Shown piece after piece: positions 1,453 through 37,540 of a stretch of DNA of 64,000 nt (its first letter is position 1; each line of letters begins with the position of its first letter). The translations under genes and the position numbers were made by a program. Below the pieces are notes generated by a model. That model saw only the letters and a list, made by a program, of their open reading frames with translations. It did no database searches and had not been told where the DNA came from. The stretch lies in assembly GCA_013215805.1 (NCBI GenBank), contig JABSQM010000014.1, positions 62,001 through 126,000 of the forward strand, in the 5' to 3' direction. Origin of the DNA: Piscirickettsiaceae bacterium (GTDB lineage: Bacteria > Pseudomonadota > Gammaproteobacteria > Nitrosococcales > Methylophagaceae).

Positions 1453-2091
1453 AAGATGTATCAATGCTAAATTAAGATTTCATACTTATACTAATACTTG
1501 AGGAATAAATTTTCATCTACGAAATATTTTATATCATTCGAATTTATTAAATTTTTTAATATAATCTGCAGATTATATTTGCAATATTAATATTTAAAAA
1601 TATACATTCTGTACCTACCTTTTAATATCATTATTTCAATATTTTTACTGCAATACATACTGTATCGCAACTTATGCTAGACAAACCAAAGATACTAAAT
1701 AAAATATTATCTTAAATAACGTTTCGATGAATTAAATCTTCTACATATTTATATATACCCTACTACCCAAACGCTAACACCCCTCATTACTCTCCATAGC
1801 ATCAAACATATCCAAAACATTAAAACTAAATTTGATAATGGCACAATAATCAGGCTAATTTACAATTATCTGTATTAAATTAATCCTTGCTATCGACAGG
1901 CATGGCAAATTAACGAACCAATATTACTTATCCTCCACCTGTGATTTCTTATGAAATATTTTTAAATGTATCATACCCGCTTTATATTATGTACGATAGA
2001 CTTGATTGCACTATTCATTATCTGATTTCATAATAATACAGTTATTAGCAATAAACAACAGATACAATCTTGTTTATCCTCTGCCAAAAAC
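1453..2091. other. Gene-free gap between yhdP and rsfS
   Basis: About 640 AT-rich bases with no open frame that looks like protein. In related gene orders rlmH, maf and rng sit here. I found no readable piece of any of them, so they were deleted or have decayed beyond recognition (inference from synteny). Confidence 0.5.
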
Positions 2092-2430
2092 CTATTTTCT
2101 AATTTTTGGAATGCTCCACAATTGACCAAGATTATAAACGGCACATGTCCTTGATGTCATCACATGAGTTACCACATCTCCTAAATCTATTAAGGCCCAC
2201 TCACCAATATTTTGACCCTCAACCCCTATGGGTTGGTTACTAACTCTCTTAACTTGTATAACAACCTCATCGGCAAGTGCTTTTACCTGGCGTGTAGAAT
2301 TACATGTAGCGATAACCATATAATCAGTTACATCAGTCATGGTTCGTACGTCTAGGACCTCTACGGCTTTAACCCTAACATCTTTCAATACACCCATCAC
2401 CAACAGCTTTAGATCTTCACCCTGCATCAA
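2092..2430 (-). CDS. rsfS: Ribosomal silencing factor RsfS
   Basis: A 112-residue protein, close to the family length. It shows the RsfS/Iojap core: a helix-strand start, the DVTDYMVIATCNSTRQ segment with the conserved D-Y and S-R positions, and GEWALIDLGDVVTHVM near the end. RsfS binds ribosomal protein L14 and blocks joining of the 30S and 50S subunits during starvation. It belongs to the ancestral holA-proA-nadD-rsfS gene order, but 820 bases now separate it from nadD, so it may need its own promoter. The second Met (residue 2) is an equally possible start. Confidence 0.93.
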   Translation of the reverse strand: MMQGEDLKLLVMGVLKDVRVKAVEVLDVRTMTDVTDYMVIATCNSTRQVKALADEVVIQVKRVSNQPIGVEGQNIGEWALIDLGDVVTHVMTSRTCAVYNLGQLWSIPKIRK

Positions 2431-3253
2431 CTATTAACTTCCATCATTGATAAAAATATACATAGTGTACATCACACCACCTTGATTCGCTGATTTTAAA
2501 TACCTTAACATTATAATTAAACATCAAATGAAAATATTAAGATCTATAAATTTTATAATATATCTCAATATTATAGTTGTTAAAATAAAAATACAAGTTT
2601 ATATATTAAAAATATATATTCATAGATAAATATGAAATAGCTAAAAAGATAAAATTTATTATCAATCTGTTAGCATTTACTTATACCCGATTGTGATGAA
2701 AAATAATTAACAATGATATAACCAAAAACAGAAAATTTATATTTCTTTAATCTAAAACCCTTACATACAAAACCCACATCTTATCAATATAAATTTGCCC
2801 TCTATTTAATAACTTAGAAATAGATCAGCTATAAATATACTTAGTTGAAATTTATTGAAATATCGATCACTGACCTTCCTATCAATCATGCTCATAAACC
2901 TTAAAAAAATTAGGGAATAAATTACCATAACTTAAGATTCAACCAATTGCACTCTAAAACTTAAGATGATGCTCATACTATCAGTATTACATAAATTATC
3001 TCTACAGATACACAAGTTATTATTTTTTATAATAATATATGCTTGCCATGAAATCAATTAGTATTGCATTTATTTGATTTGATAAAGACAAGGACCTGCA
3101 ATATAAAATATATAACTTTCAATAAAATTATTGTAATAAATCAATAGACAGGAAGCTATGAACTTTTTATGTTATATTGTACCAAAATTGAAGGAACGTA
3201 GAATGTAGCCAAGAAAATAAATTCTACAATTATATATACATCTGGATGCTCTG
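2431..3253. other. Gene-free gap between rsfS and nadD
   Basis: About 820 AT-rich bases with frequent stops in all frames. nadD and rsfS are normally almost contiguous, so this is probably expanded or decayed spacer; I see no recognisable gene piece or RNA. Confidence 0.45.
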
Positions 3254-3880
3254 TCAATAGAGGCCAAGTATTTTGATAAAACTAATCACCGCATCAGGCA
3301 TAAAAAACCTTAAATTTAAACCTCTAGCTATTTTCTTTCTTATTTTGGTTGCTGAAATCGCAATTTGAGTTACATTTACAGGCCAGATATTTCCTGAAAT
3401 GCAATATCTACTTTCCCTAGCAGCCAAATGGTCCTTATACCAATCAGTTAATTCATCGGACATAGTTAATGATTCTCCTGGTCGTTGCATCACAACAATA
3501 TGAGTGAAATCTAATAACCGTCTCCAGTTATACCAAGTATTAATACTAACAAAAGCATCCGTACCTAAAAATAGGTATAGTGGATTTTTGACAAACTCAT
3601 AACGTAGACTAACTAAAGTGTCGACAGTATAAGAAGGTCCTTCACGATGTAACTCTCGATCATCAACTATAAAATATTGCTCATCTCTTATCGCAAGCCT
3701 CATCATTGTTATCCGCTGCTCTGCCGTAGCAATGAGTTGTATTTTGTGCGGAGGAATACCACAAGGAATCAAACGAACTTGATCCAATTTTAATTGTTCT
3801 ATAACGTCTAATGCAGTTCGAAGATGGCCAATATGAACGGGATCAAAGGTACCCCCTAATATTCCTATTTTTTTTAGCAT
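3254..3880 (-). CDS. nadD: Nicotinate-nucleotide adenylyltransferase
   Basis: A 208-residue NadD. It transfers AMP from ATP to nicotinate mononucleotide, giving deamido-NAD, the shared late step of NAD synthesis in the cytoplasm. The nucleotidyltransferase signature GGTFDPVHIGHL with its two catalytic histidines is at residues 9-20, and the ISATKIRKKI motif near residue 175 matches the family ISxTxIR phosphate-binding motif. Length matches the family (about 210). It starts 2 bases after the proA stop, so the two are co-transcribed in the order holA-proA-nadD. Confidence 0.96.
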   Translation of the reverse strand: MLKKIGILGGTFDPVHIGHLRTALDVIEQLKLDQVRLIPCGIPPHKIQLIATAEQRITMMRLAIRDEQYFIVDDRELHREGPSYTVDTLVSLRYEFVKNPLYLFLGTDAFVSINTWYNWRRLLDFTHIVVMQRPGESLTMSDELTDWYKDHLAARESRYCISGNIWPVNVTQIAISATKIRKKIARGLNLRFFMPDAVISFIKILGLY

Positions 3881-3882
3881 AT

Positions 3883-5139
3883 CTAAGTTCGCACTTGACC
3901 GTTACCTAGTACAATCCATTTTTGTGAAGTAAGACCCTCTAAACCAACAGGGCCTCGCGCATGCAATTTATTAGTTGAAATACCAATTTCAGCACCCAAG
4001 CCATATTCAAACCCATCTGCAAATAGAGTAGACGCATTTACTATCACAGAGCTGGAATCTACCTCTGCCATGAAACGACGCGCCTGCGCATAAGCTTTAG
4101 TAACAATAGTTTCAGTATGTCCTGAACCATGTTGATGGATATGCTCCATTGCCGTCTCTATTCCATTAACAACACGGATGGATAAAATTGGGGCGAGATA
4201 TTCAGTATCCCAATCTTCTCTAGTCGCTTTATTTATATGAATTAATAGCTCCTTGGTTTGTTCGCAACCTCTTAACTCAACTCCTGCATCAGCATAACGT
4301 CTCCCTAATATGGGTAATATCTTGTGAGCGATTGACCGATCGACCAATAAAGTTTCCATGGCATTACAAACACCATAACGATGACATTTAGAATTAAATG
4401 CGATTTCTTCTGCCATCCCTAAATCCGCTGATTCTTCGATATATATATGGCAAACACCATCAAGGTGCTTAATAACCGGCACCCGAGAATTATTAATAAT
4501 GTGCTTTATTAACCCCTTGCCACCACGAGGTATAATAACATCGACATAATCAGGCATCCCAATAAGTTGTCTCACTGCTGATCTATCTGTTGTTTCAACA
4601 AATTGCACCATTGTAATCGGCAATTCTACTTGTAATAGACCGCGATGTATGCATTGTACAATTGCTTGATTCGACTTCATCGCCTCACTGCCACCACGTA
4701 GAATAACGCTATTGCCTGATTTCAGACATAGCCCAGCAGCATCTGCCGTGACATTAGGCCTAGATTCGTATATTACCCCTATCACACCTAAAGGTACACG
4801 CATTCTACCAACCTGTATGCCACTTGGACGATAGCACATATTGCTAATCTCCCCAACAGGATCTGGTAGACCTGCGACCTGTTCCAAGCTTTTAGTCATC
4901 AATTCTATACAATTATCCGTTAGTTCCAATCGATCTAATAATGTCTCATTCAAGCCTCTATTTTTACCTAACTCTAAATCACAAGCATTTTCCTTTTTTA
5001 ATATTTTTACCGCAGTTCTAATTTCATTAGCAATGGCTATCAAGGCTCTATTTTTTGTATCAGTATCAATACAAGTTAATAAGCGGCTAGAATCCCTAGC
5101 CTGCTGACCTAATGTCTTCATATATTTAGTGATATTCAA
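3883..5139 (-). CDS. proA: Gamma-glutamyl phosphate reductase
   Basis: A 418-residue ProA, normal length. It reduces gamma-glutamyl phosphate with NADPH to glutamate semialdehyde, the second step of proline synthesis. Visible family features are [10 protein letters not shown] in the substrate/cofactor region, [11 protein letters not shown], the [10 protein letters not shown] strand, the catalytic cysteine region ([15 protein letters not shown]) and the ending [14 protein letters not shown]. It lies between holA (10 bases upstream) and nadD (2 bases downstream), an arrangement known from other gammaproteobacteria. The partner kinase proB is not in this window. Confidence 0.96.
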
Positions 5140-19530: not shown

Positions 19531-21021
19531 ATGATTAATAACAACCTACCTTATGATCTATATTCAGTAAATCAAATTCGAAAATTAAATAAGATTGCCA
19601 ATGAATGGTACAATATTACACCATCTGATCTAATGAAGCACGCTGGAGATTCTGCACTCAACACAATTAAAAATCATTGGCCTCAAGCTGAAAGATTATT
19701 AGTCATATGCGGTACTGGTAATAATGCTGGTGATGGATTTTATCTGGCAAAACAAGCATTGGATAATGGTTACCGAGTGGTGGTATACCAAGTCGGTAAT
19801 AACGAAAAATTAAATGCCAATGTAGATCACGCAAAAAAGAAAATACTTGCCGCTGGCAACAAAGTTTATTCATTCAAAGACTCATTGCCTTCCACTGATC
19901 TTATTATTGACGCCATACTAGGCATTGGAATTAATCGCGCAGTGACAGGGAAATACAAGAAAGCCATCCAAATGATAAATGAAGATAAATATACATCAGT
20001 GTTATCGATGGATACTCCTTCTGGTTTAAACGCCGACACTGGTAATACATTAGGAATAGCGGTGAAGGCTAATGCCACCATAAGCTTTATGAGTTTAAAA
20101 AGGGGACTATTTACAGGTGAAGGTCCTAACTACTGCGGTACTATATATTTTAATTCATTAGAGATTCCATGCGAAATTTACCATAACGTGTTCCCCATTG
20201 CCCGCCGGATCAACTTAGAAAATAACTCTGCAAGTCTAGTACCTAGAGAACGAATTGGACATAAAGGCTCGTATGGCCACTTATTTATCATTGGCGGTGA
20301 TTATGGTATGTATGGCGCAGCACTTATTGCAGCAGAAGCAGGTGCACGTGCTGGAGCCGGATTAATAAGCGTTGTCACACAAAGCACAGAGGTCCTAGTG
20401 AATTTTTCAAGACCAGAATTGATGTGTCATAGTGTGGAATATGATGATGATCTTAGTAGTCTACTATCTATTGCAAATGTGCTTTGCATTGGCCCAGGAT
20501 TAGGTCAAAATAAATGGGGAGAATCATTATTCAAAAAATCTATAGAAACCAACTTACCCTTAATTGTTGATGCAGACGCATTAAACCTTCTTAGCAAACA
20601 TCCAAGCCATCACGACCAGTGGATTTTAACCCCACATCCTGGCGAGGCGGCACGTTTACTCAATTGTAGCTCTCAAGACATCCAAAATGACAGATTTGAG
20701 GCAGTCAGAGAACTACAAAGCCGTTATGGTGGTATAGCTATTTTAAAAGGATCTGGCACCCTAATTTATGATGGTAACTCACCCATACGACTCTCTAATC
20801 TGGGTAACCCAGGAATGGGTAGTGGAGGCATGGGAGATTTGCTTGCAGGAATGATTGGAGGTCTATTAGCACAGCATTTATTCCCAATGAATGCTGCCTG
20901 TATAGGTGTAATTATCCATGGTATGGCAGCTGATCGAGTGGCAAAAAAAAATGGTGAACGCGGCATGTTAGCAATGGATTTGATGCCCCATGTACGCCAT
21001 TTAGTAAACTTAGCTTACTAA
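19531..21021 (+). CDS. nnr: Bifunctional NAD(P)H-hydrate epimerase / ADP-dependent dehydratase
   Basis: A 496-residue two-domain repair enzyme that re-forms NAD(P)H from its hydrated forms. The N-terminal YjeF_N epimerase domain (about residues 1-215) has ICGTGNNAGDGFYLAK and MDTPSGLNADTG. The C-terminal carbohydrate-kinase-like dehydratase (about 225-490) has GSYGHLFIIGGDYGMYGAA, DADALNLL, TPHPGEAARLL and the catalytic NPGMGSGGMGDLLAG. Both active sites look complete. It forms the conserved nnr-tsaE-amiB-mutL order; tsaE starts 15 bases downstream. The N-terminal start MINNNLPYDLYSVNQIRKLN fits the family. Confidence 0.96.
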   Translation: MINNNLPYDLYSVNQIRKLNKIANEWYNITPSDLMKHAGDSALNTIKNHWPQAERLLVICGTGNNAGDGFYLAKQALDNGYRVVVYQVGNNEKLNANVDHAKKKILAAGNKVYSFKDSLPSTDLIIDAILGIGINRAVTGKYKKAIQMINEDKYTSVLSMDTPSGLNADTGNTLGIAVKANATISFMSLKRGLFTGEGPNYCGTIYFNSLEIPCEIYHNVFPIARRINLENNSASLVPRERIGHKGSYGHLFIIGGDYGMYGAALIAAEAGARAGAGLISVVTQSTEVLVNFSRPELMCHSVEYDDDLSSLLSIANVLCIGPGLGQNKWGESLFKKSIETNLPLIVDADALNLLSKHPSHHDQWILTPHPGEAARLLNCSSQDIQNDRFEAVRELQSRYGGIAILKGSGTLIYDGNSPIRLSNLGNPGMGSGGMGDLLAGMIGGLLAQHLFPMNAACIGVIIHGMAADRVAKKNGERGMLAMDLMPHVRHLVNLAY

Positions 21022-21585: not shown

Positions 21586-22929
21586 ATGCCGTATATTCTA
21601 CTAAGCCTATTATTAACAATAACTACATCTAAAATATGGTCTGCAACAGTTGAAGGTATGCAATTATCACATTCCAATCACGGTACCTGTATAGTATTCA
21701 ATATAGTTGGGAATATTAAATATGACGTATTTACCCTAATTGCTCCTGATAGACTCGTGATTGATTTTGACAATTCGCAGCACACTACAAACCTCGCTAT
21801 TCCCAAATTCAAAAATGCACTAATTAATGACATTCGTTATTCCATGTGGAAGAAGACTACCTTGCGCTTTGTATTTGAACTTAATAATACCATAAAGTAC
21901 AACATTGAAGAGCTCAGCACAGATCAAAAATATCAACATAACCTTATCATTAATCTATTACATAAAAAAAAGTTAGATATAGTTAACGATAATAATAAAC
22001 ATACATCCACAAAAACACAAATAGAATATAGGATAGCAAAGTTGCCACGTACCATACCGATGATAAAAACTAAAAAGCCTAAAATACGGAGCAATATTAT
22101 TATTGCTATTGATGCAGGACATGGCGGACTAGATTCTGGAGCACTAGGTAAAGGCGGTACCAAAGAAAAAGATGTAGTATTATCAATAGCTAAACGTCTG
22201 GCACAACTAGTCAATAATGAAATAGGAATGAAGGCATTTCTCATTCGTGACAAAGATGAATTTATTACTCTACGTCAAAGAATCAAGCGTGCCCATGAAA
22301 ATAGTTCGGATATGTTCATTTCTATACATGCCGACTCCTTCTACAATCCACAAGCAAGAGGAGCCTCAGTATATGTTTTATCCAAACATGGTGCCAGTAG
22401 TGAGGCCGCACAATTGCTTGCTGATAAAGAAAATGCAGCCTATTTATCTGGAAATATCAGCTTAGAAGATAAAGATGATTTACTGGCTTCCATATTATTA
22501 GACTTATCCCAAACCGCCAGCCTCGAGGGAAGCATTAAGGTCGCCAATACCATACTTTATGAATTAAAGCGTGTTAGTCATATGCATAGAAAACATGTTG
22601 AATCGGCTGAATTTGTCGTATTAAAATCACCAGATATACCATCACTACTAGTAGAAACAGCATTTATTTCAAATATAGATGAGGAACGCAAGCTAAGAAG
22701 TACCGATTATCAAAATAAATTGGCGCGCGCCCTAATGAACGGTATCTATAGTTATTTTAAACATGATCTACTGCTAAATATTACGCCTATACGAAAACAT
22801 CTTGTCCAACGCGGCGACACCCTAATATCTATAGCCCAACGTTACCAAGTAAATTTGAATGAAATTAGAGTGAAAAATGATCTACAAACTACCACAATAA
22901 GAATGGGTGACATGCTATTTTTACCTTAA
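21586..22929 (+). CDS. amiB: N-acetylmuramoyl-L-alanine amidase with AMIN and LysM domains
   Basis: A 447-residue periplasmic zinc amidase that splits septal peptidoglycan between daughter cells. A signal peptide (about residues 1-20) is followed by an AMIN domain (about 22-120), a linker, and the Amidase_3 domain (about 168-390). Zinc and catalytic positions are IDAGHGGLDSGALG, GTKEKDVVLS, MFISIHADSF and LLVETAFISN. A C-terminal LysM domain (HLVQRGDTLISIAQRYQVN, from about residue 404) binds glycan. In E. coli AmiB activity needs FtsEX-EnvC; FtsE and FtsX are present here. Confidence 0.95.
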   Translation: MPYILLSLLLTITTSKIWSATVEGMQLSHSNHGTCIVFNIVGNIKYDVFTLIAPDRLVIDFDNSQHTTNLAIPKFKNALINDIRYSMWKKTTLRFVFELNNTIKYNIEELSTDQKYQHNLIINLLHKKKLDIVNDNNKHTSTKTQIEYRIAKLPRTIPMIKTKKPKIRSNIIIAIDAGHGGLDSGALGKGGTKEKDVVLSIAKRLAQLVNNEIGMKAFLIRDKDEFITLRQRIKRAHENSSDMFISIHADSFYNPQARGASVYVLSKHGASSEAAQLLADKENAAYLSGNISLEDKDDLLASILLDLSQTASLEGSIKVANTILYELKRVSHMHRKHVESAEFVVLKSPDIPSLLVETAFISNIDEERKLRSTDYQNKLARALMNGIYSYFKHDLLLNITPIRKHLVQRGDTLISIAQRYQVNLNEIRVKNDLQTTTIRMGDMLFLP

Positions 22930-23032: not shown

Positions 23033-24684
23033 GTGACAAACAATGATCGTATCCATACTTTATCTTTACACCTCTCAAATCAGATCGCTGCAGGTGAGGT
23101 GATTGCAAGGCCAGCTTCCATTGTGAAGGAATTAGTTGAAAATAGTATCGATGCGGGAGCTTCGCAAATTGATATTAAAATTTACGGTGCCGGTAGCAAA
23201 CTCATCCAAGTTCATGATAATGGCAATGGCATTCATGCAGATGATCTAATACTTGCTATAAGGCGTCATACTACCAATAAATTATATTCCAGTGAGCATC
23301 TAAAATACATTGATAGCCTAGGTTTTAGAGGTGAGGCTCTACACAGTATTTCATCAGTCTCTATGTTGAGCATAACATCACGACGAATTGATAGTAATTG
23401 TGGCTGGAGAATATCTGGAGATCATAATAAAATTGGCTCCGCACCTCACCCATCAGGCACCACCATTGAAGCCAACGATCTATTTTTCAATCTGCCTGCT
23501 AGACGACGCTTCTTGCGAAGTAATAGAACAGAACAATATCATATTTTAAAAACTATATATCACTTGGCATTAAGTAATTTTAATATATAATTTGCTTACA
23601 AAGTATCTGGCAATAATAGACTAAAATTGCCCATTAGCAAATCTACTATCGAACAGCAACAACGTATTGCGAAGATCTGCGGCCAAGAGTTTATCAACAA
23701 CACCTTATATATAAAGAAAACTTACCATAACATCAGTATATCTCGTTAGATAGTTAAGCCTAATACCCACAGGCCTCAGAATAACATACAGTACATATTT
23801 GTTAACAGTCGAGCGATTAGAGATCGTGTCATTTGCCATGCCGTACGTCAAGCATATGATAATCGGATTCCCAAAGGTCGTTATCCTGCTTACGTTCCAT
23901 ATTTAACAATACCTCCAGAACATGTTGATGTGAATGTTCATTCTACCAAACATGAAGTTCGCTTTAATGATGCCCGCCTAATTCACGGTCTTATTACTTC
24001 AGCATTTAATGAAATCCTATCACAAGAGGACAGTATTAGTACTTATTACGATAAAAAAATAGATCTAAATCGAAATTTTATTTCTATAAAATCTAAGTCA
24101 CATCGAATTAAAGATACAGATAATACGTTTTCTGAAAAAATAAATCACCAGAACCTACAATAAAATCAACTGATATCCTATTATATCAACGCTATATTAT
24201 AATTCATTATAACCATCAACTACTCTTAATTGACCTCCAAAGAGCCGATTTGCAAATACGTCAACAAAATTTATTGTGCGCAATAAAAACTGGGACTCTT
24301 AAATCTCGTCCTATTCTAGTACCTATATCTGTGTCAACAGAAGAGAATCTTATTGCACTATATGAACTACATCAGGCAGTATTACGAGATTTAGGTGTTG
24401 AATTTATCGTTCAATCAAAAAAATTTCTCATCAAGCAAATTCCAAGTCTGTTAACCCAAGTTAACATTCAACAATTTGTGCAAAAAATCATGCGTGCTTT
24501 ATTCGAAAATAAAACTAGCTTCGAACAGCTAAGCTATGTCTTACAGCAACAATTACCACTGTTTGAAATTTTATCCTTAGAACAAGCAGAACTGATAATA
24601 CGACAGCTAGACAAGCAACTAAATGATGCCCCTTGGAGCAAAGGACTTGATCTGCAGATTCTAAACAGCCTATTCTATCCATAG
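23033..24684 (+). pseudogene. mutL: Broken mutL (mismatch repair)
   Basis: A MutL coding sequence split by at least two frameshifts and one nonsense codon. From a GTG at 23033 the ATPase domain reads well: LSNQIAAGEVIARPASIVKE, DNGNGIHADDL, LGFRGEALHSIS and NLPARRRFLRS. The frame ends at TAA 23588-23590. The continuation lies in another frame from about 23590 (FAYKVSGNNRLKLP), meets TAG at 23747-23749, then gives FVNSRAIRDRVICHAVRQAY and VNVHSTKHEVRF up to the stop at 24161-24163. The C-terminal dimerisation region follows in a third frame to 24684. The family ending with CPHGRP is missing. A free N-terminal fragment of 185 residues could be made but would lack the dimerisation part. Confidence 0.93.
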
Positions 24685-27042
24685 ATATATTTACTACAAA
24701 GATCGTCAACCTATAAATTATAATATGGCTAAATTAAATTTGCTATATTTTTTATACCATTATTGCGAATTTATGTTATCCATGTTGATTTCATCTAGTT
24801 ATTTATTATTTCTCGGCCTAAAATCTGAACATATCAAGTAAATATTGTACCTCCCTATTATAAACATCATTCAAACACCCCCCACACTTCTAACTTGCAT
24901 AGAAATAACAGAATGCCAAGCAAGGTATTTATTGAAATACCCAACATAACTAAAACCTGAAGGCATGATAAACATGATGGGTCCTATTATACCCGCCTAA
25001 AATTTACTATTGAGATAACTACTCGATAATTAAAAGGGTTGCTGATAAAATAAAGCAAAATTACTTATTCCAATATGATATATTTTTCACTCCAAATAAA
25101 TCTTACTGATAAAATCGGTATATAGTATGATATCATAATCACTATTAAAGAGACTGCATGGACCTTTGATGTCGCCAAACCGATGAGCTAGAAAAATTGG
25201 GCAGCCAACTTCTGATAAGCTAGATAAATAAGAATTATTACTCAATAAAATATCTTATAAGCAATAAAATTAGATAAATATAGTCATCTGATATAGACTT
25301 TATTTGCTACTGTCAACCATGGAGAACAAGACAATAATATTGAAATATAATGCAATCAGGCTGAATAGATAAAAATTAGCATATATACACGAATAATTGC
25401 TGATGTAATTTACCAGGCATACGAATAATCATTTGAGACAACTTGATTCTGAAATAGGAGGAAAATGGACAGCTTTACATAGAAAGTGTCAGACCAAAAT
25501 TAAATGTTGGTATCAGTTGTATTCTTGCAAATATGGGCGGCTACAATAAAAATTAAATGAATCCTGACAATAATTTCATTACTTACAAAGTATACGTAAA
25601 ATTTTAAGATGATTTATCCTGAATGACAAATTATTTTAATATATTGTTTTTACTAGAAGTAAGTAAGATAAATTAAACAATTCTCTCAATAAACATAATC
25701 GGAGCATAAAAACATTGGCTGTCATAGATTAATGATAGATCTCATATTATTTGTCCTAGTGATCATTATTATTGCTATTGCATTATTGATTCCACTAAAT
25801 TAGTGTAATTTGATATGTCAATTACTACCATTAAGCACTGAACGTATCAGAAATACTATAAAAAGCTAATGTTATTGAAAATCATGATGAATGCCCCATT
25901 TTTCACAAACAGGTCTTATTAATCCCAGGATCTAAAATTCATCAACATGGAGATAAGCATATAACGACAAGCGACCAATAGTATAAAATATTGATGTAAA
26001 ACTTACTCATGATAATAAATATATTATTGAATAACTCAATAAAAAATAATGCTACTAATATAAATTAAAAATCTATTTATCATATTTAAATCAGAATGGA
26101 GAGTGCATAATCAATAAAAATATATAATTTATATGGCGAAATTAAAACAACTAACTAGTATTCAAATTTATTATTAATATTTGCATTATATGTTTCTCCC
26201 TATCTAACCTCGCAACCGTTATTTCGGTAACATATACACTGAGTTAGATTTCAAGTAATCACTCACAGTGTATACCAAAGTTAATTTAGCTAGATTCATT
26301 AATACCTAACTCAAACGCACCGATATTAGCTTGATCCTAAATATATATTGCTTTTCCAGGCAAACTATTGAAGTGTCGCAATACCTAACTTCACTAATCT
26401 TGGCTGATCACATACACAACCACTATCGACCATAGATTATAAAAATGGAGTTCTCTGCATCTTTGCAATATTTTAAGTGATTTTCTTAATATCGGAGCCT
26501 GTAAGCACAAAACCCTGGAATTATACTGTTCTAAAGAATATTATTGTAAAATGACTTCTGTATATATTTGTGAAGACGGCAAGCCTGCAAACCATAGAGC
26601 GCCTTAAATTAATGAGTGAAACAATATAAAAACAAGCGCAACAAAATCAACTTCTAGATTTACCTCTAATACCAGCAATAATTAAATTTGTTTGGAATTA
26701 TTTTGATATCAAACAGAACTTTATATTGTAGCACTTGCGCATCAATAGTAATATCACTCATATTTAGGCAACGAGAATTCTAGAAAAAGCTGAGGGTTCA
26801 TCAATACAAAACGCACGCTCATTTAAGCCTTCTTCAATCTTATAGATCAATTTCAGGTCTTATATATCATGCAATGTACTCTCCGAATTGTTATGAAAAT
26901 ATAGAATACATATATAATCCGCCCTCTTCTCGCCCCCCTTATTGCTTACTCAGACATACCCATTACAAATAAAAATACTATAAATCAAACCATATTTCAC
27001 TTGACAGTATAACTATACGGAGAGTCTAATATGTACTTTAAT
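24685..27042. other. Long decayed gap after mutL
   Basis: About 2.4 kb with dense stops. Ancestrally miaA, hfq and hflX-hflK-hflC would follow mutL; I could not read any of them with confidence. A hydrophobic stretch near 25733-25800 (MIDLILFVLVIIIIAIALLI) and a stretch near 26550-26600 (SVYICEDGKPANHRAP) look coding-derived but are unassigned. Confidence 0.35.
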
Positions 27043-27118
27043 GGCTTGATAGCTCAGTCGGCAGAGCAAGGGACTGAAAATCCCTGTGTCCCTGGTTCGA
27101 TTCCAGGTCAAGCCACCA
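27043..27118 (+). tRNA. tRNA-Phe (anticodon GAA)
   Basis: A 76-base tRNA including encoded CCA. Acceptor GGCTTGA pairs with TCAAGCC at 27108-27114. The D-arm has AGCTCAGTCGGCAGAGC, the anticodon stem-loop is AGGGA-CTGAAAA-TCCCT with GAA at 27076-27078, and the T-arm is CCTGGTTCGATTCCAGG. It stands alone in decayed sequence. Confidence 0.97.
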
Positions 27119-27679
27119 AAAATAAAAAATATAAAACTTTATTGTAGTATATGACTATCCCGGTTTTACTATATTGTATATTTATACTATTTGCCCAATT
27201 TCAGTTACAGATATATTTTTTTAGATAAAAATAATTTATTATCATAATAATATCACCTAAAATTTTTTATTTTTGTGAGTTTACATACCTATAAATATAT
27301 AAAATTATACATTAATTAAATCTGTAACTTATCAAGTTGATTGCTGCATAGAACCAATAAGTTAGCGTATCATTATTTAAAGTTGAATTATTTTAGAGGA
27401 GCATATTGAAGCTTAAATAAAGTGTATATACTCCATGATACTATCCTTATTAATCTCTATATCAAAATTTGCTCCCACTCAGTAACTACCACACTTCCTT
27501 GCAATTACATGTTATGTGAAACATATAAATTTCACTTAATGATAAAAATGTATATTTTTTGTTGAAAAAGAGTTGCAAAGTCATTCTCAATGTGGAGAAT
27601 ACATGACTGATGGGTTCCAATAATCCAGTCAATGAAAATAAGCTAAGCTAATATGTTAATAAATTTAAAGGTATATAAA
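27119..27679. other. Upstream region of the porin gene
   Basis: About 560 very AT-rich bases, probably holding the porin promoter. I saw no convincing -35/-10 pair. The porin ribosome binding site (AAAGG) lies at about 27666-27670. Confidence 0.4.
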
Positions 27680-28828
27680 ATGATATTTAATAAGACAGCC
27701 ATTGCGGTCTTAATTGCTCTAGCAGCAACGAGTGCAGCTAACGCGAAGATCATCGCTAGCATTGAGAATGGCTGGCAATTATCCGTGACTGGTAAAATCA
27801 ACCAATTCATGATTATGACTGACGATAAAAACCGTGATGATTATAATGAAGTCCGTGGTGGTAGAATAGCAGGATTCATAAAATTTAATATTAAAATACC
27901 AAAAACAAATGGTCTTAATATAAATGCTCATATTTCCTTAAGCCCAAGTACCAACAAATCTGGTCATCAAAATCTTGAACAACGTGAGATCTACTTTACG
28001 GTTGATGGTGAATTTGGTCAAATATTAGCAGGGAGAGCTTTAGGTCTTTACGGCTCACATAATATGGTAACTGAACAAACTTATAGGGGGGTAGGCTATG
28101 GTACTGGTGGTAATGCTAATAGCACCTTAGGTGGCATCGGTATAGGTCATGACTATGCTGCATGGCGTCAACAATTTAGATGGACCTCGAAGAGGGTCAA
28201 AGGCCTCCAGATTGCCTTCTCTATATCTGAGAATGGTGGCGGAACCCAAAGACTGCAGAATAAATTACCTACAGGTAGTATGCAGACAAGTCAACGTGAT
28301 TCTAAAGATCGTAGATATGAAGGTGATGTAAATTACAAAGGTGTTATAGATGGAGGCAAGTACATGTTTTGGTTCTCCGGTATGAACACAGGAAATGATA
28401 TAGCCAATAAAGCAGATGCACCTAAAGGTGAACAGGCTATAACAGTCGGAGCTACTTTGCATATCCACGGTTGGGAATTTATGACTCAATACTCTGATTC
28501 TTCGGGCTCCACTGATGCTAAGCCTGAAAACGAAAATGAAAATACAAAAGCTAAAAAGGCTCAAAAGGTAAGATGGGATCAGTATGTCCTCCAAGGTGGT
28601 TATCGCTTTAAAGAAAAAACATTAGTATCAGTAAACTACTCTAGAGTTCTGGAATATAGTTTAGGTGCAAAAGGTAATGCAAATGAAGCTGACCGGTGGA
28701 CTTTTGGTATTTACCACGATCTGACTGACAACCTCAGATTAATTGCTGAAGTTTGTAAGGTCATAACTGAAAAACGTACAATCCTCTATCAAAAAGACAT
28801 CTCTTTCGGAGCAGAGGTCCGTTGGTAA
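27680..28828 (+). CDS. Outer-membrane general porin
   Basis: A 382-residue porin starting at ATG 27680, with AAAGG about 10 bases upstream; the frame extends to an ATG at 27653 but the signal peptide begins at 27680. Residues 1-22 are a classic signal peptide ending in TSAANA. The mature part has alternating strand patterns and loops, contains GGRIAGFIKFNIKIP and GEFGQILAGRALGLYGS (like the strand before the constriction loop in Gram-negative porins), and ends in GAEVRW, a C-terminal aromatic that serves as the BAM insertion signal. Trimeric porins let small solutes cross the outer membrane. It has its own terminator at 28857. The exact porin subfamily is not resolved. Confidence 0.88.
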   Translation: MIFNKTAIAVLIALAATSAANAKIIASIENGWQLSVTGKINQFMIMTDDKNRDDYNEVRGGRIAGFIKFNIKIPKTNGLNINAHISLSPSTNKSGHQNLEQREIYFTVDGEFGQILAGRALGLYGSHNMVTEQTYRGVGYGTGGNANSTLGGIGIGHDYAAWRQQFRWTSKRVKGLQIAFSISENGGGTQRLQNKLPTGSMQTSQRDSKDRRYEGDVNYKGVIDGGKYMFWFSGMNTGNDIANKADAPKGEQAITVGATLHIHGWEFMTQYSDSSGSTDAKPENENENTKAKKAQKVRWDQYVLQGGYRFKEKTLVSVNYSRVLEYSLGAKGNANEADRWTFGIYHDLTDNLRLIAEVCKVITEKRTILYQKDISFGAEVRW

Positions 28829-28856
28829 ACAAATTAATGTTTGAATAGCAAGTGAG

Positions 28857-28887
28857 AGCCTCGAATTTTTAAAGTCGGGGCTTTTTT
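28857..28887 (+). terminator. Rho-independent terminator of the porin gene
   Basis: An 8-base-pair stem AGCCTCGA / TCGGGGCT (one G-T pair) around a 10-base loop, followed directly by a T run at 28882-28887. It lies 29 bases after the porin stop and is the clearest intrinsic terminator in the window. Confidence 0.9.
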
Positions 28888-29119
28888 GTGATTTATATAA
28901 GCACGTGCATATAGATTCAGTAAATAATATCACCAAGAATAACAAATAATGCATATAAAAACTAGTTTAATTTAAAGACATAATAGACTAAAATTAATAT
29001 TAATTAATAGTGTTAATTTGTTTAAAAGCGACCGATATGACTGGTAAGCTATCTATATTAATTTTCTTATAATTTTTATAAATCTGTATAATGGATTTTT
29101 TATACATTTCAATACTAAC

Positions 29120-36835: not shown

Positions 36836-37540
36836 TCAGTTATATAAAGACTGATGTAATAACGGACCCGTAAAGGATGTTCTTAAATAAAATCCTTTGG
36901 GAATTATAAATGCACTGGTATGACCATTTGACATTCCTCTTACTAATACTAAGCTATTAGCTGCCTTTGGACGAATGTGTAAATACTCCCCTTCCTGTGA
37001 AGTAATCTCTGCTTGCTCGCCCAATACAATCCTATCCATCAACTCTTCCCAGTCTCGCTGCAATGAGCATTCTTCTGCAAATGACGGTCGCCATATCCAG
37101 AAATTATCTACGTATCGTTCTGCCAAAGGTATATCTCTAGCAGCTTCTACTGGCACCCATAATACCCGAGATAGCTTTCTTTTCACCCAACTATTTTGCC
37201 AACTATACGCATCTATCTGCCGTATTGGCATAGTACATACATATGTTGACTCCTTGGGTTTTTCATGAGCATCTACAGGTAAGGTTTTAAGTTCCACTCC
37301 AATGTCCAAAAAATCAGGTTCAGCCCTATCGCCAGCATTAGCACCTAAATAATTTTCACATAAATGTCCTACCCATCCCTTATGTAGGCGTAAATCTTCC
37401 GGTACTGTCATAGATAATTTAAAAGCGATCTGACCTAATGTTTGCCCAGCCATTATCTCACATCGATTTAACAATTCTGCCTCTGTCTTAGGAATAGGAG
37501 TAAATCGCGTCTGTTTTGATGAAAAGTTATCTTCTGTCAT
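36836..37540 (-). CDS. mutH: DNA mismatch repair endonuclease MutH
   Basis: A 234-residue MutH (E. coli 229). The Type II-restriction-like catalytic set D-x6-ExK is present in PDFLDIGVELKTLPV (about residues 81-95), and KGWVGHLCENYLGANAG and ADEPDF-like sequence (here DRAEPDF) precede it. LWVPVEAARDIPLAERYV and the C-terminal FYLRTSFTGPLL complete the family pattern. MutH nicks the unmethylated strand at hemimethylated GATC, but only when stimulated by MutL; mutL is broken in this genome, so this intact gene may be without function or used differently. Confidence 0.95.
   Translation of the reverse strand: MTEDNFSSKQTRFTPIPKTEAELLNRCEIMAGQTLGQIAFKLSMTVPEDLRLHKGWVGHLCENYLGANAGDRAEPDFLDIGVELKTLPVDAHEKPKESTYVCTMPIRQIDAYSWQNSWVKRKLSRVLWVPVEAARDIPLAERYVDNFWIWRPSFAEECSLQRDWEELMDRIVLGEQAEITSQEGEYLHIRPKAANSLVLVRGMSNGHTSAFIIPKGFYLRTSFTGPLLHQSLYN

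Follow-up and report, generated by a model that had tools for sequence, protein, structure and literature searches.

The mutL locus

The window, by which we mean the whole 64,000-nucleotide stretch of DNA that was analyzed, was found to contain a mutL pseudogene and an intact mutH gene on the opposite strand (Table 1). The intact 550-residue MutL of the nearest relative was used as the reference for a frameshift-aware alignment, with which a tblastn search was concordant. As evident from the alignment, which ran end to end and showed a sequence identity of still 62%, three disablements were present in approximately 1650 bases, namely two nonsense codons and one -1 frameshift. In particular, the reading frame covering MutL residues 1-358 differed from that of residues 370-548. 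The ATPase domain (PF13589) matched positions 23033-23587, and the C-terminal dimerization domain (MutL_C, PF08676) was found at 24142-24681 in a different frame from the N-terminal part. The longest N-terminal piece comprised 185 residues and stopped well within the ATPase/transducer half. The first-pass annotation had described two or more frameshifts and a TAG within the gene; the gene is indeed broken, but by a TAA, a TAG and a single frameshift. The nearest relative has the same neighborhood of nnr, tsaE, amiB and mutL.

Table 1. Coordinates of the analyzed features within the window.
Feature	Position	Strand	Evidence
amiB, intact; also precedes mutL in relatives; synteny anchor and control gene	21586..22929	+	ORF, synteny
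mutL pseudogene, full length recognizable	23033..24684	+	Frameshift-aware alignment, tblastn, domain matches
In-frame TAA, MutL residue 186, N-terminal ATPase/transducer region	23588..23590	+	Frameshift-aware alignment
In-frame TAG, MutL residue 239	23747..23749	+	Frameshift-aware alignment
-1 frameshift at about 24135, in or beside an A6 run (24135-24140), MutL linker	24130..24142	+	Frameshift-aware alignment
Non-coding DNA from mutL to the porin gene, without detectable remains of the nearest relative's genes here	24685..27652	+	tblastn
mutH, intact, 234 aa, single copy	36836..37540	-	ORF, PF02976, alignment to 2azo

Sequencing or assembly errors could in principle produce such breaks, and the frameshift does lie at an A6 run. 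The two other breaks, however, are base substitutions outside homopolymers, so homopolymer sequencing error cannot explain the state of the gene. Several family-invariant MutL residues were changed as well, and dam is independently broken in the same genome; we therefore regard such errors as extremely improbable. The mutL sequence may nevertheless reflect a population polymorphism or a consensus error. A second, intact mutL, which the first-pass annotation had named as a counter-possibility, was not found in the genome, and the sole MutL gene carries both stops.

MutH and the remaining repair genes

The MutH protein matched PF02976 with 96.6 bits (cut-off 23) and the E. coli MutH structures 2azo and 1azo with an E-value of about 5e-63. 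The DX6EXK set was present, and the alignment to 2azo revealed that all five catalytic residues were retained (E62, D76, E83, K85 and K122, which we take to be the counterparts of E. coli E56, D70, E77, K79 and K116). The earlier description of mutH as full length with its catalytic set was thus borne out. The same genome provides neither a working MutL as a partner for MutH nor a working Dam to mark the strands.

The first-pass annotation had also proposed a look for mutS, dam and uvrD elsewhere in the genome, and our evidence beyond the window comes from searches of the genome plus a few stretches. Both mutS (856 aa, 1525-4095 of stretch L147 on contig C17) and uvrD (721 aa) were found as intact, full-length open frames, and dam was found as a pseudogene outside the window, on contig C18 at approximately 11.6-12.4 kb (approximately 3619-4404, minus strand, of stretch L149). 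The dam trace aligned end to end with the Dam of a relative at 71% identity, and the frameshift-aware alignment revealed a +1 and a -1 frameshift, a TGA and a further disturbed stretch; additionally, the DPPY motif of the relatives was changed to DSPY. Reading dam in a single frame gave 12 stops, a count that overstates its age and was set aside in favor of the three clear breaks and the disturbed stretch. The density of disablements was three in 789 bases for dam versus three in 1650 bases for mutL.

The single-copy parts of this pathway are orthologous to those of E. coli methyl-directed mismatch repair (Dam, MutS, MutL, MutH and UvrD), with the same MutH catalytic set; unlike in E. coli, mutL and dam are pseudogenes, whereas mutS, mutH and uvrD are intact. 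Judged from its genes, methyl-directed repair is broken at two points. No other PF02086 (D12) or PF01555 (N6/N4) protein that might serve as a substitute methylase was found in the genome, and because dam is broken as well, the genome's own GATC sites are predicted to be unmethylated. The observed/expected ratio of GATC was 0.97 in the window versus 0.75-0.84 in relatives. We did not retain this abundance as a sign that methylation had been lost because AATT, CATG and GTAC shifted likewise, and the signal is not specific.

Distribution among relatives and genome setting

We found mutL to be stop-free in every family member in which it was recovered, and all members of at least 90% completeness retained such a stop-free copy together with a D12 methylase, which is intact in relatives of the family. 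Of 377 gammaproteobacterial genomes taken in an even draw, 81 carried MutH. A MutL match was found in 73 of the 77 MutH-bearing genomes searched, and stops inside the match occurred only in the genome of the window. Because mutL is free of stops in the family and this genome is the sole case among the 77, the stops are not due to chance. The four remaining genomes (G146, G289, G351 and G408) gave no match to MutL at E<=1e-25; gaps in their assemblies, MutH-like proteins that are divergent, or genuine losses may account for this. Of these, G408 (1.7 Mb, 5 contigs) is the strongest candidate for a second case of MutH without MutL.

The genome of the window comprises 1.149 Mb in 27 contigs with a completeness score of 100%; genome sizes of relatives within the family range from 1.2 to 3.6 Mb. 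Its GC content is 33.7%, compared with 41-54% in the sampled region of the relatives. The closest named match of MutH was that of Methylophaga sp. 42_25_T18 (69% identity), and the genome is assigned by this protein to the Methylophaga lineage. Intact gene-size open reading frames cover approximately 50% of the window, as in a genome that is part-way through reduction. We infer a host-associated lifestyle solely from the size, composition and coding density of the genome. A literature search found no described reduced symbiont of the Methylophaga type.

Selection on mutH

To assess conservation, we examined the columns that are invariant in the other relatives and counted the changes in the genome of the window. 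The proportions of changed columns were 13.4% in MutH, 16.1% in MutS, 18.6% in MutL and 18.7% in Dam. Among the intact genes of the window, 8-32% of such columns were changed, and mutH was therefore unremarkable within this range.

Branch omega values were obtained with our own maximum-likelihood code under an MG94-type codon model; they are rough, given the composition change (33.7% vs 41-54% GC) and the high divergence, with approximately one neutral substitution per site on the branch. The value for mutH was 0.164 (95% about 0.10-0.30) versus 0.081 on the other branches, and the values for mutS and dam were 0.124 versus 0.091 and 0.146 versus 0.057, respectively. In 16 intact control genes, the ratio of foreground to background omega ranged from 0.78 to 3.4, and four of these genes lay above mutH. 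The mutL branch, in contrast, showed no rise (0.173, 95% approximately 0.125-0.24, versus a background of 0.171). The few disablements, the identity retained with the relative and this absence of a rise support an inactivation of mutL that was recent and late on the branch, in agreement with the very recent death suggested in the first-pass annotation. Relative to the intact orthologues of relatives, mutL carries disabling mutations, but its branch lacks the relaxed dN/dS that would be expected only after an old death; since its death was too recent for the dN/dS test, the disablements decide its status.

The dN/dS of mutH had been put forward as a test of whether the gene is itself decaying. 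Its omega is indeed far below 1, but the test is uninformative, since a dead mutL passes it too and a death this recent escapes it. We accordingly rejected this value as evidence of current use; being an average over the whole branch, it proves only that mutH was used through most of it. More broadly, a low branch dN/dS is no proof that the surviving partner of a dead gene is still used.

We also estimated how long an unselected frame would survive, using a simple Poisson/gamma calculation with equal rates scaled from the mutL count of three disablements in 1650 bases. Under these assumptions, a mutH (702 bases) evolving neutrally since the death of mutL would have stayed unbroken with P = 0.29, compared with P = 0.037 for a neutral mutS and 0.022 for mutS and mutH together. 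The survival of mutS is a weak hint of a later death or of continued selection, whereas mutH is fully compatible with coasting. The earlier suggestion that mutH is next to be lost is likewise compatible with these values, but a frame with such odds of surviving unselected does not prove it.

These results also bear on the proposal that MutH is retained for a role independent of MutL, such as the cutting of unmethylated or hemimethylated GATC DNA. The intact frame, the five retained catalytic residues and an omega far below 1 would fit such a role. However, the frame may well have survived by chance, the low omega is shared with the dead mutL, and the mutH value is twice its background rather than lower. 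Moreover, the cutting of incoming DNA requires protected self DNA, and the genome's own sites should be unprotected, given the broken dam and the lack of any D12 or N6/N4 methylase among the search results. The cutting of incoming or hemimethylated DNA, as raised in the first-pass annotation, is therefore unlikely, and we consider retention for any MutL-independent role highly improbable.

Among the genes tested, the largest rise in omega was observed for nnr (NAD(P)HX epimerase/dehydratase, window 19531-21021), which has an open frame (0.186 vs 0.055, 2dlnL 33.9), and the branch omega of the nearby amiB was also increased twofold. Both genes are possible next casualties.

Timing of decay in the window

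The first-pass annotation had suggested that the loss of mismatch repair could speed the decay seen across the window through homopolymer slippage. The nearest relative carries many genes between mutL and mutH, and for most of them no remains were detected in the intergenic DNA of the window (tblastn, E<=0.01). In the interval syntenic with 24685-29119 (from mutL to an aconitase-family gene), the relative has, among others, two hexulose-phosphate-synthase-like genes and one transaldolase-like gene, names that we assigned by eye from the sequences; neither type was detectable in the window interval. Because only about half of the window is coding and these neighbors are gone without a trace, in contrast to the end-to-end alignment that mutL still gives, most of the decay probably predates the death of mutL, an ordering which assumes that the missing genes were ancestral rather than inserted in the relative. 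We also rejected homopolymer slippage as a driver of decay, since A/T runs of at least 6 were not depleted in intact genes (50 vs 47.1 +/- 4.6 in codon shuffles). The suggested acceleration thus found no support, and with the decay probably older for the most part, the loss of mutL would be a further outcome of genome reduction rather than its driver.

Interpretation and comparison with other reduced genomes

We consider it quite likely that methyl-directed mismatch repair has been caught part-way in ordinary piecemeal decay, with mutH coasting. In this view, relaxed selection would be dissolving the Dam-MutS-MutL-MutH-UvrD pathway of a reduced genome of the Methylophaga lineage gene by gene. 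The recent casualties are dam and mutL, and the frames of mutS, mutH and uvrD are still whole. By the E. coli mechanism, repair by this pathway should be off, since MutS has no MutL through which to engage MutH and Dam no longer marks the strands, and too little time would have passed for a hit on the 702-base mutH. The low odds of an unselected mutS surviving and the low omega of mutH speak to some extent against this view.

MutHLS is known to break DNA at unmethylated GATC sites in dam mutants of E. coli, the phenotypes of which are suppressed by mutations in mutS, mutL or mutH. An adaptive course can be envisaged on this basis: dam died first, MutHLS cut both unmethylated strands at GATC to give double-strand breaks, and the loss of mutL was selected as a suppressor, with mutS and mutH intact for now. 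In line with this course, dam and mutL are both broken and both look young, omega is raised for dam and not for mutL, and the denser disablements of dam give a weak posterior of approximately 0.83, under equal rates, that dam is the older loss. However, the order of the two losses is statistically unsettled, the pattern would be no different had both genes been lost passively, and the omega rise of dam is matched by several intact genes, so that we regard adaptive loss of mutL as unlikely. That reduced genomes losing dam are driven by a self-damaging MutHLS to break mismatch repair at one point, leaving idle but intact mutS and mutH, also appears rather doubtful. Should dam be lost ahead of mutL in other reduced genomes, this order would provide a test of whether mismatch repair turns harmful without Dam.

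Under piecemeal decay, the disassembly of the repair pathway is seen mid-way, with dam and mutL gone and the effectors intact. For mutL, this state is the combination that a survey of Sodalis-related louse endosymbionts reported and then withdrew: mutL was first scored as inactive beside intact mutH and mutS in reduced genomes, and the call was withdrawn because only in-frame linker deletions were present (PMC11137140). Unlike in those symbionts, the mutL of the window has two stop codons in the ATPase half, so its loss is real, and dam is also lost. In Vallotia, an adelgid endosymbiont with a moderately reduced, gene-sparse genome, mutL and mutS are both pseudogenes (PMC8692619), whereas mutS, mutH and uvrD are intact in the genome studied here. 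The mutL finding of the first-pass annotation is real, fuller with dam, mutS and uvrD added, and ordinary in kind. As a minor observation, slippage-prone A8 and T9 runs sit in the open mutS frame of this genome, which is predicted to be without mismatch repair.
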